A stretch of 64,000 bases of DNA from positions 62,001 through 126,000 of the forward strand of contig NZ_VAJM01000004.1 in the NCBI RefSeq assembly GCF_005771675.1. The letters are read 5' to 3'. This DNA is from Hymenobacter jeollabukensis. Its GTDB lineage: Bacteria; Bacteroidota; Bacteroidia; Cytophagales; Hymenobacteraceae. Under the pieces are notes generated by a model. The model ran no database searches and was not told the origin of the DNA. It saw only the letters and a list, made by a program, of their open reading frames with translations. Position numbers and translations under genes: made by a program. This document shows positions 4,294 through 40,866 of the stretch, in pieces; the first letter of the stretch is position 1, and each line of letters opens with the position of its first letter.

Positions 4294-4812
4294 TTACTGA
4301 ACTTTTTGCCAGCCCACCACCACCGCGTCGGGCGGGCGGTTTTCGGCCCGATAGCCCGGCTCGATGCTGGCCGTTTCGGGCAGGGGCAGCTCCGGGAATA
4401 CGTTGCGCACCCGGCCCAGCACGCGGGCGTTGGCCGGGTCGGTCAGGTCGATGGTGACCAGATCGACGGCGTTGTCGGCGTAGAGTACCGGGCCGCGCAT
4501 GGCCACGTCGAGGCTACCCGGAATGCGCAGGAAACCCACTTTGCGAGGCCGAGCCGGATCCTGGTTGTCGATGATGTGAATGCCCTCGTACTGCTCGTTC
4601 ACCAGCAGGTAAGAGCCCCGGCAATAGGTTTTGCCGGGGGCCTGCACGTCGCGGGGCGGCAGCAGGGCCACGGCCTGTTCCAAGTGGGCGCGGGTCATCA
4701 GCAGCGGGCGGTACACGGGCAACGACGTCGACTTGGGGTCGTCCTGCTTCACGTAACAACCCGGCAGCAGGAGCAGGGCGCAGAAGGACAGCAAAACGGA
4801 AAGCTTAGACAT
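4294..4812 (-). CDS. Lipoprotein with LVIVD-like repeats
   Basis: A 172-residue lipoprotein. The start at 4812 (MSKLSVLLSFCALLLLPGC) gives a clean lipobox, while an upstream GTG-type start adds eight residues and breaks the signal peptide. The segments YEGIHIIDNQDPARPRKVGF and DLVTIDLTDPANARVLGR are LVIVD-type propeller blades. It is shorter than typical members and may form a propeller together with the next protein in the operon, but that is speculation. The next gene starts 7 bases downstream. Confidence 0.65.
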   Translation of the reverse strand: MSKLSVLLSFCALLLLPGCYVKQDDPKSTSLPVYRPLLMTRAHLEQAVALLPPRDVQAPGKTYCRGSYLLVNEQYEGIHIIDNQDPARPRKVGFLRIPGSLDVAMRGPVLYADNAVDLVTIDLTDPANARVLGRVRNVFPELPLPETASIEPGYRAENRPPDAVVVGWQKVQ

Positions 4813-8258: not shown

Positions 8259-12770
<4,512 letters not shown>

Positions 12771-12788
12771 GGTGCGGCCCATTGCTCT

Positions 12789-13040
12789 TTTCAATGCGTT
12801 GGAAGGAGCTTCCAACGCATTGGAAGGCGTCTTCAAGACATTGGACGCGCCTTCCAACGCTTCGGAAGGAGCTTCCAACGCTTCGAAGGGCGCTTCCAAC
12901 GCATTGGAAAGCGTCTCCAACGTCTTGGAAGCTCTTTCCAACGCATCGGGTACGCCGTTGGACACGTCCAAGACGCCAACCGACGCGTCGGTTACGCCGT
13001 CAGACGCGTCCAAAAGCATGGCCGACGCTTCGGGGCGTGC
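12789..13040. repeat. Array of about twelve 21-bp palindromic tandem repeats
   Basis: Units start at 12789 and recur every 21 bases through unit 12 at 13020. The best-conserved core is TTCCAA-CGCA-TTGGAA (units 2 and 6 are perfect palindromes). Consecutive arms are 10 and 11 bases apart, so inverted half-sites fall on one face of the DNA helix. Units 9-12 have changed sequence but keep symmetry: unit 10 holds a perfect 16-base palindrome (AACCGACGCGTCGGTT) and unit 11 an 8-base one (GACGCGTC). Because 21 is a multiple of three, several frames read as heptad-like peptides, but base composition is less GC-rich than the flanking genes and no start signal supports translation. The array fills the gap between the pump and adaptor genes. 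Confidence 0.85.
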
Positions 13041-13194
13041 TGCCGGGGGCGCGGCTGAGGCTTCCCGGGCGGCGGGCGGCGCGGCTGAAGGCCCCGGCTC
13101 TGGCCGGAAGCACGGGCTGGCGGCGTCCGACCCGGCTTTTTATTGTTCATACGGGCACTTCGCCCGGTTCCTGTTGTTGCTGACTTCTGCTTCG

Positions 13195-14361
13195 ATGATT
13201 TCCTCCTTCAAATACGTATTGCCGCTGGCCTTGCCCTTGCTGCTCGGCGCATGCCACTCGCAGCCGGCCGAGGCCCCGGCCGCCGCCGAACCCACCGCCG
13301 CCGCCCCCGATGAAGTACGCCTAAGCCCCGACGAGCTGCGCGTGGCGGGCGTGCGCACCGGGCGCGTGAGCTACCAGGCCACCGCCGGCGCCCTGCGCGT
13401 CAACGGCTCCCTGGAGGCGCCGCCGCAGAGCCTGGTGGTGCTCAGCGCCCCGCTGGGCGGCTACATCGAGCGGCTGCCGCTGCTGCCGGGGGCGCACGTA
13501 AGTCGCGGCGAGGCCGTGGCCGTGGTGCGCAACCCCGAGTTCATCCAGGTGCAGCAGGACTACCGGCAGGTGCTCAGCCAGCTCGACTACGCCCGCGCCG
13601 AGCTGGACCGCCAGCGCGAGCTGGTGCGCGAGGAAGTGGCCCCGGCCAAAAACCTGCAGCGCGCCCAGGCCGAGTACCGCAGCCTGCAGGCCCAGCGCGA
13701 CGCCCTGGCGGCCCGCCTGCGCCTGGCCGGCCTGCCCGTGCAGGCCAGCGGCCCGATGCGCAGCACCGCCGAGCTGCGGGCGCCCATCAGCGGCTTCGTG
13801 CGGCACGTGCGCGCCACCACCGGCCAGACGGTCACCTCTACCGACCCGGTGGCCGAGCTGGTCGACCCCACCCACCTGCACGTGGAGCTGACGGTGTTCG
13901 AGAAAGACGCGCCGCGCCTGCAGGTGGGCCAGCGCATCCGCTTCACCCTGGCCTCCGATTCGGCCGGCAAGGAGCACCTGGGCCGCATCACGCTGGTCAG
14001 CCGCTCCGTCGACCCCGAGGCGCGCACCGTGAGCGTGCACGCCCACCCCGACGAGGAAGACAACCCGGCGCTGCTGCCGGGTATGTTCGTGCGGGCCACG
14101 GTGGAAACGGCGGCTTCGGCCGCTCAGGCCGCCGCCCCCACGCTGCCCGAGGCGGCCGTGGTCGACTACGAAGGCAAGAGCTACATCTTCGAGCAATTGG
14201 CCGCTGGCCGCTACCGCCTGGTGGAAGTGCGCCGGGCCGGCGCCGTGGAAAACGGCGCGGTGCCGCTGGTACTGCCCGCCCGCATCAAGGCCGAAACCCT
14301 GGTGGCAACGACCGGGGCGTACAGCCTGCTTGGCAAGCTGAAAAACACGCTGGACGAGTAA
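13195..14361 (+). CDS. Efflux RND periplasmic adaptor (membrane fusion protein, CusB/CzcB type)
   Basis: A 388-residue lipoprotein adaptor. The start at 13195 gives MISSFKYVLPLALPLLLGAC, a clear lipobox. The frame is open back to 12772 through the repeat array, but that extension is repetitive and lacks a start context. Domains in order: a lipoyl/barrel-sandwich half (SAPLGGYIERLPLLPGAHVSRGE), a helical hairpin of about 60 residues (QVQQDYRQVLSQLDYARAEL onward), the second lipoyl half (LRAPISGFVRHVRATTGQTV), and beta-barrel and membrane-proximal domains. It should link the inner-membrane pump to the fused outer-membrane channel. It is followed by a terminator lying inside an inverted repeat. 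Confidence 0.9.
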   Translation: MISSFKYVLPLALPLLLGACHSQPAEAPAAAEPTAAAPDEVRLSPDELRVAGVRTGRVSYQATAGALRVNGSLEAPPQSLVVLSAPLGGYIERLPLLPGAHVSRGEAVAVVRNPEFIQVQQDYRQVLSQLDYARAELDRQRELVREEVAPAKNLQRAQAEYRSLQAQRDALAARLRLAGLPVQASGPMRSTAELRAPISGFVRHVRATTGQTVTSTDPVAELVDPTHLHVELTVFEKDAPRLQVGQRIRFTLASDSAGKEHLGRITLVSRSVDPEARTVSVHAHPDEEDNPALLPGMFVRATVETAASAAQAAAPTLPEAAVVDYEGKSYIFEQLAAGRYRLVEVRRAGAVENGAVPLVLPARIKAETLVATTGAYSLLGKLKNTLDE

Positions 14362-39970: not shown

Positions 39971-40092
39971 GCAAATAAAGTCAGAAGCCGGTTTCGTTTT
40001 GTCTCAGAAGCTATGAAAATTAACAAACCAGCTCCGGCGAAACCGCTTCGCCACCCGCTGTTTCATCCTCGAAAAGTTATTAACGACTCCGC

Positions 40093-40866
40093 ATGGCCCA
40101 CGCTCCCGAATGGTTTGATCTGACCGGCAAAACGGCCCTGGTAACGGGCTGCAACAAGGGCATCGGGCAGGGCATGGCCCTGGGCCTGGCCGCCGCCGGG
40201 GCGGACATCATCGGCGTGTCGGCCACCATGCCGCTCAGCGGCGGGCAGACGCAGCAGCAGGTAGAGGCCCTGGGCCGCAAGTTCACCGCCTACCAGTGCG
40301 ACTTCGGCCAGCGCGCCGCCGTCGACGCCTTCGCGGCCCAGGTCATGGCCGATTTTCCGCGCATCGACATCCTGGTCAACAACGCCGGCACCATCAAGCG
40401 CGCCCCGGCCGCCGAGCACTCCGACGAGCTGTGGGACGAAGTGCTGCGCATCAACCTCGACGCCCCGTTCCGCCTGGCCCGCGCCATCGGCGGGCGGATG
40501 CTCGGGCAGGGCAGCGGCAAAATCATCTTCACCGCCTCGCTCTTGACTTTCCAGGGCGGCATCAACGTGCCCGGCTACGCGGCCAGCAAGGGTGCCATCG
40601 GCAGCATCGTGAAGGCGCTGGCCAACGAGTGGGCCGGCCGCGGTGTGAACGTCAACGCCATTGCCCCGGGTTACATCGCCACCGACAACACCGAGGCCCT
40701 GCGCAACGACCCGGACCGTTCCAGCAGCATCCTGGGCCGCATTCCGGCCGGCCGCTGGGGCACCCCCGACGACTTCAAGGGCCCGACGGTGTTCCTCGCC
40801 TCCGCGGCCAGCGACTACGTGCACGGCACCATCCTCACCGTCGACGGCGGCTGGATGGGCCGTTAG
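40093..40866 (+). CDS. kduD: 2-dehydro-3-deoxy-D-gluconate 5-dehydrogenase
   Basis: A 257-residue short-chain dehydrogenase of standard length. Cofactor motif TGCNKGIGQG (residues 18-27), NNAG (96-99), Ser149, and the catalytic Tyr162-xxx-Lys166 in GYAASKGAIG. The high similarity of CNKGIGQGMALGLAAAGADI to KduD and the kduI gene 70 bases downstream support the assignment. It reduces 2,5-diketo-3-deoxygluconate (DK-II) to KDG with NAD(P)H in the cytoplasm. It is the first gene of the second transcription unit of the locus, reading away from the LacI gene. Confidence 0.93.
   Translation: MAHAPEWFDLTGKTALVTGCNKGIGQGMALGLAAAGADIIGVSATMPLSGGQTQQQVEALGRKFTAYQCDFGQRAAVDAFAAQVMADFPRIDILVNNAGTIKRAPAAEHSDELWDEVLRINLDAPFRLARAIGGRMLGQGSGKIIFTASLLTFQGGINVPGYAASKGAIGSIVKALANEWAGRGVNVNAIAPGYIATDNTEALRNDPDRSSSILGRIPAGRWGTPDDFKGPTVFLASAASDYVHGTILTVDGGWMGR

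Follow-up and report, generated by a model that had tools for sequence, protein, structure and literature searches.

The repeat of type III toxin-antitoxin systems is about 36 nt long. In the ToxIN features compared here, which are covered by parts of PMC8860590, a promoter precedes a tandem repeat array, and the array stands directly before the gene for a small protein. TIGR-Tas loci, according to sections of PMC12045711, consist of two alternating repeats of 8–12 nt with 9-nt spacers and of a gene for a protein with a Nop domain. TAACTGA and other intergenic heptamers are tandem repeats before start codons, also in Bacteroidetes, with a period of 7 and one fixed sequence (PMC4679880, in part). 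REP and BIME elements are palindromic intergenic repeats of 20–40 bp, present as one sequence at high copy (PMC3733652, in part), while Rickettsia palindromic elements are dispersed, about 150 bp long and also found in frame inside coding sequences (sections of the MITE review PMC10969869).

The array described here has a period of 21 bp and is located in the window, i.e. the whole stretch of 64,000 nucleotides that was analysed. The first-pass annotation had placed an array of 21-bp units between a gene for a fused RND pump and channel and the gene for its adaptor. The 252-bp array spans exactly 12 × 21 bp according to the sequence, TRF and direct repeats, and its position was borne out by Pfam and the coordinates. 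The features of the locus are as follows:

8259–12770, forward strand: fused RND pump (ACR_tran 7–1041) and outer-membrane channel (OEP), 1503 aa (Pfam)
12789–13040, no strand assigned: tandem array of 12 × 21 bp (sequence; TRF; direct repeats; autocorrelation 0.73 at lag 21)
12789–12956, no strand assigned: units 1–8, TTCCAACGC(A/T)T(T/C)GGAAGGNGC type (unit comparison; dyad profile)
12957–13040, no strand assigned: units 9–12, GAC(A/G)CGTC type with dyad within the unit (column-permutation pairing test)
13041–13194, forward strand: spacer between array and adaptor, 154 bp (sequence; promoter scan)
13195–14361, forward strand: adaptor, CusB/HlyD-like (HlyD_D23, HlyD_3) (Pfam; gene caller)

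The AcrB-type pump and the outer-membrane channel are encoded in a single ORF, the stop codon of which lies 18 bp before the array. The adaptor start at 13195 was judged from codon scoring and a lipoprotein-like signal. Among plasmid sequences, the adaptor is closest to Hymenobacter records, at about 53% identity, in line with the attribution in the first-pass annotation. TRF called the period of 21 at 12792–12946, the direct-repeat family shows a spacing of 21 five times, and a consensus scan of the locus (L177) found no consensus Bacteroidetes-type promoter in the spacer.

Inverted half-sites, TTCCAA and TTGGAA, had been reported throughout the array at alternating distances of 10 and 11 bp. 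These distances hold where both half-sites occur, but exact copies are fewer than claimed, with TTCCAA in 5 of the 12 units, TTGGAA in 4 and both together in 2. Permuting the columns of the unit profile never reproduced its dyad symmetry (z = 5.3, 0 of 2000). Units 1–8 have a mean pairwise identity of 0.66, units 9–12 one of 0.52 among themselves and 0.48 to units 1–8. Unit 10 contains a perfect 16-mer palindrome, AACCGACGCGTCGGTT, as claimed. On the unit axis, units 9–12 form 24 of 32 complementary pairs compared to 19.0 ± 1.7 after permutation of columns among the four units (p = 0.002), a value from four units only and one of six tests, for a split chosen after the pooled dyad-covariation test of the window array had yielded no excess (p = 0.27). 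No pairing excess was found within units 1–8 (43 of 64 pairs, 45.1 permuted, p = 0.97) or on the axis between units of the window array (column permutation).

The claim that units 9–12 have lost the core and kept their symmetry stands as far as the dyad within the unit is concerned, but symmetry need not have been made anew. Since genome G141 (L397) carries a similar second unit (GTTGGACGCATCG / GTTGGATGCGTCC) beside TTCAACGCATTGAA units, the type of units 9–12 may be inherited. The two-unit pattern of the window was found in 4 of 204 genomes of the family, and the window array is the only one among the matches listed for the window genome (G000). A separate contig scan for three CCAAYGC half-sites at 21 bp listed mostly cyanobacterial 7-bp and unrelated repeats and was not used.

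RNA folding of 12780–13050 gave a z-score of −8.17. Together with the location between the two genes and the within-unit symmetry kept in units 9–12, this is consistent with a chain of RNA hairpins that sets the ratio of pump to adaptor, as had been suggested, or stabilises the upstream mRNA. Comparison of pump-adaptor loci within the genus argues against this explanation. An array is present in two of seven such loci (window genome and G006) and missing in five (G001, G002, G004, G005 and G007, gaps of 118–214 bp). The G006 array, at the equivalent place, shares the period but has another unit (TCCGAAG...CTTCC), a dyad short of significance (p = 0.054) and no excess of RNA structure (z = +0.6). 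Units 1–8 lack within-unit covariation, and in 11 other arrays pooled pairing was not above column permutation, four of them falling below it (p at least 0.994). We consider the hairpin chain very improbable and see no support for a ratio-setting role. Eight further, more distant pump-adaptor loci have gaps of 42–116 bp and no array.

By eye, GTAGCGCGG(A/G)CT inverted-repeat DNA occupies the gaps of G002, G001, G005, G004 and G007 (L178, L179, L181–L183) where the window has its array, and it resembles GTAG-tagged REPs. In contig C1 of G016 (L145, region 4441–4779), a window-type array separates an RND adaptor gene from an RND pump gene, the gene order being reversed. Arrays of this type are not confined to pump loci, and the one in the window belongs to a wider class.

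This class was examined in samples of the window genome (464 kb), G016 (406 kb) and G006 (340 kb). Of 27 intergenic tandem segments, 18 had periods of 21 bp or its multiples, with differing units; these are detected segments, and with two arrays split in two the figure corresponds to 16 of 25 loci. For coding DNA of the same samples the figure was 9 of 49 tandem segments, and with the threshold applied no array appeared in 5 × 57,956 bp of mononucleotide-shuffled intergenic DNA of the window genome. Neither a 400-kb sample of G153 (0 of 4 arrays) nor G009 from another genus (0 of 2) contained arrays of this kind.

Within the class the unit sequence varies from array to array, and the period is 21. 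The units, of which about 6–17 (mostly 7–13) were aligned per array compared, are free of indels in most arrays, some being spaced 20 or 41. A dyad at p < 0.01 was found in 10 of 24 aligned arrays, with 14 falling short, so dyad symmetry is optional. The notion that symmetry outlasts sequence is better replaced by the statement that the period does: the conserved features are the period, equal to two turns of B-DNA, and the place, not the letters. Arrays of 42 bp whose palindromic cores of 8 bp are GAGTACTC or of CCTAGG type were observed in G000 (C22, around 369722 and 381013) and G016 (C3, 313169), and two of these sit 3′ of paralogous 'MPAYQ' genes. In a comparison of pairwise identity between arrays and flanks, the shuffled control scored 0.71–0.75, which made the array values meaningless, and a claim on turnover was dropped; the flank identities (0.76–0.97) are usable.

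Judged by eye, nine of 18 listed arrays are next to genes whose products are small, helical and not assigned to any Pfam family. Orthologues from a family-wide genome search were scored for an array with a period of 21 bp or a multiple of it within 650 bp upstream. Such an array precedes 28 of 28 genes of family A, 25 of 28 of family B and 20 of 24 of family N, where 8 of the 24 N entries are distant or partial matches whose upstream region may include coding DNA. Truncated matches (L332 and L333 for B, L358 and L359 for A, and L159, L160, L164, L166, L172 and L176 for N) were dropped before counting. Among all genes of four samples, 44 of 1296 had an upstream array. For genes behind gaps of at least 300 bp the figure was 17 of 246, an undercount because short weak ORFs, called within some arrays by the codon-based gene caller, cut gaps (e.g. 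at G000a 40053–40244, upstream of a family A gene); five of the 17 belong to families A, B/E or N themselves, and for two the best period is 39. In another genus it was 0 of 73. A control with fn3-only matches gave 0 of 25, a weak control since the DNA upstream of these matches is often coding.

The proteins of families A, B and N are small and either all-alpha or alpha plus Fn3. N proteins combine a helical part with Fn3 (Fn3 matches in distant members) and occur as several paralogues per genome, with 8 matches in G085. Structure models of A and B are all-alpha (pLDDT 77 and 80, pTM 0.45 and 0.50), and neither yielded a PDB match with an E-value below 0.37. No known domain, ToxN-like domains included, was found in the array-linked proteins.

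Outside the family, the N profile found six full-length homologues in five other genomes of the phylum (296 genomes searched). The DNA upstream of these has a G + C content of 26–50%, and its best period is 21, 42 or 63 in all six cases, with a score of at least 0.60, the threshold also applied within the family, in four; the lowest score, 0.52 for L399, does not exceed that of shuffles (p = 0.12). A family B homologue from another family (L367) shows weak upstream periodicity (0.57). The arrays thus lie at gene starts in this family, most often upstream of the three families encoding small helical proteins, and the outline extends to distant members of the phylum.

The link to these families bears on a purely mutational origin, i.e. 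a class of minisatellites produced by duplication with a two-turn ruler at permissive places, such as intergenic gaps and a protein linker, with no function needed. A common period with differing sequences fits such a process, and it also occurs inside genes: in 7 of 11 orthologues of an M23-type coding sequence (L382–L392, 11 genomes), the linker is filled by repeats of 21 or 42 nt that keep the reading frame, the copy in G087 being of the window type. The adaptors without an array in five of seven same-genus loci and the rarity of the window pattern in the family point the same way. However, arrays before most or all tested genes of three families and before distant homologues, at rates far above the controls, argue against this origin, as do core k-mers shared between arrays. 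We keep the mutational origin as a rival, though a rather unlikely one, and with it the earlier idea of a hairpin-forming minisatellite; pure neutrality fits poorly with the tie to three gene families. The M23-type linker is hypervariable in length and sequence, and its repeats encode other heptapeptides.

Promoter placement differs between the families. In a consensus scan, a promoter upstream of the array was found at 13 of 16 N loci, 6 of 28 A loci, 3 of 25 B loci and neither of the two pump loci; downstream of the array, it detected promoters at just 5 of 25 B and 3 of 28 A loci, and at neither of the pump loci (window and G006). Between array and gene, N loci conserve a GC-rich element of about 45 bp. 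In L148–L157, a GGCCGTGTGGTGGCGAAGAAACCGGGTGCCTCGCGGCC element about 60–110 bp before the start of the N gene is kept while the array changes; L150 has no Rfam match. More generally, Rfam gave no match at gathering score in L001, L150, L334, L304, L002 and L180.

The order of promoter, array, spacer element and gene at N loci, and the several N paralogues per genome, would fit a layout like that of type III toxin-antitoxin systems, in which the array is transcribed and the neighbouring protein binds or cuts its units; the window copy would be an orphan. Arrays with a dyad fold strongly as RNA, as seen in the window. Many arrays, however, show no excess of RNA structure (e.g. z = +0.6, +0.4, +0.2 and +2.1), the class has no common RNA fold, the proteins lack a ToxN-like or other known domain, and few A and B loci have an upstream promoter. 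We regard this explanation as improbable.

The sequence content of the arrays was compared to null expectations. GGAA, i.e. the GGAA/TTCC core, occurs in 37 of 78 array consensi (null 9.6, maximum 18), and 85 arrays share a weak consensus of 5.02 bits (null 2.61, maximum 2.72). A 10.5-bp component is present in the purine track (z = 6.7) but not in the A+T track (z = −1.3), where the strongest component is at 5.25 bp (z = 10.3); orthologous arrays are not independent, so these k-mer and harmonic z-scores are inflated.

Codon-phase bias is absent over the 78 intergenic arrays (0.391 vs 0.403 permuted), stop codons occupy different frames in different arrays, and the gene caller placed two weak short ORFs (scores 8.0 and 9.3) inside other arrays. 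Three of five tested arrays in coding sequences vary most at third positions. As a class, the arrays are non-coding. In the 78 intergenic arrays, forward frames (towards the gene) were stop-free more often than in column-permuted arrays (1.83 vs 1.34), and reverse frames were not.

For the window array, a coding heptapeptide repeat, read in the SNALEGA frame that runs without a stop from GTG 12772 to join the adaptor ORF, draws on the open frame 12772–14361, the open forward frames and the existence of in-frame arrays in one family of coding sequences. Codon scoring, however, puts the adaptor start at 13195, other arrays of the palindromic type have stops in this frame (e.g. L148, L150), and the intergenic arrays lack the phase bias while most of the tested in-CDS arrays vary at third positions, making a coding repeat highly unlikely.

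From the class, its period, its link to gene families and the variety of its units, we infer a phased docking array at the DNA level as the explanation for the whole class. We favour this reading tentatively, with somewhat less than even confidence. Because 21 bp equal two turns of B-DNA, the units would face one side of the helix. A putative DNA-binding protein that prefers a short core (often TTCC/GGAA) would dock along the array, and the resulting regular nucleoprotein array would act on the neighbouring promoter or on local DNA shape. Units would be homogenised inside each array yet diverge from species to species, so that period and place outlast sequence. The cooperative protein-binding array proposed in the first-pass annotation is the best reading for the class but not for this pump, its binder being putative, and in the window the array would stand apart from the gene that normally accompanies it.

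Docking is supported by the concentration of 21-bp multiples in intergenic compared to coding segments and their absence from shuffles, by the upstream arrays of families A, B and N compared to all three controls, by the periods upstream of the six distant N homologues, and by the enriched GGAA core, the weak common consensus, the purine component and the non-coding nature of the arrays. Against it stand the putative status of the binder, the A+T track, promoter placement that is not uniform between families, in-frame arrays in a coding linker (7 of 11), which are odd for a promoter array, the excess of open forward frames and the G153 sample (0 of 4).

A broader proposal, which we consider possible though distinctly less probable than docking as such, is a phylum-wide two-part system that pairs a small protein, helical with or without Fn3, with an array belonging to it; period and helical phase rather than letters would be conserved, and the protein or a partner would read the phased array as DNA or as a processed RNA. 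The window array resembles the N-type arrays of G016 and G141, and the A3 profile search for the N gene gave no match in the window genome; it is thus taken as an N-type orphan, which under the broader proposal would have been captured by an efflux operon.

If the class is functional, it represents a cis-acting DNA (or RNA) element with constrained spacing and nearly free letters that is tied to nameless protein families. Orthologous genes with equal period and different units would then be natural replicates for asking whether phase alone carries function, and the arrays would provide a lead on three protein families lacking names. If it is not functional, the arrays indicate duplication measured by a two-turn ruler, which is of interest in itself.

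Compared to the known systems, the arrays resemble ToxIN in preceding a small-protein gene directly (families A, B and N; at the window, the gene encodes an efflux adaptor) and, in family N, in having a promoter before the array. They differ in the 21-bp repeat, in more units and in the many arrays without RNA structure, and no ToxN/CptN/TenpN-like toxin was matched in Pfam, NCBIfam or PADLOC among the array-linked proteins. With TIGR-Tas they share short-repeat arrays beside small-protein genes and a unit that is fixed per locus and varies between loci (PMC12045711, in part). In contrast to TIGR, 29 of 77 arrays show a significant variable block, with lengths of 6–16 and just three of length 9. 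The array-linked proteins had no Pfam match to the Nop domain, nor was a Nop structure among the 50 Foldseek rows listed for the models of A or B, which are of modest quality.

Unlike the heptamers, which are likewise intergenic tandem repeats before start codons, the arrays have a period of 21 and sequences that differ between arrays. Rickettsia palindromic elements share the in-frame occurrence of palindromic repeats in coding sequences, but the repeats here form 21-bp tandem arrays. REP and BIME elements are palindromic and intergenic, as is the window array, whereas the arrays of the class have many unit sequences at low copy and about half lack a dyad. No described element of this design was found in the open-licence literature searched, in agreement with the first-pass annotation. 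Phased operator or nucleoprotein arrays are alike in that sites repeat at a whole number of helical turns (period 21), protein binding being putative here. Taken together, based on the lack of membership in these systems and on the open-licence literature, we take the class of arrays to be a new kind, of which the window array is one member.
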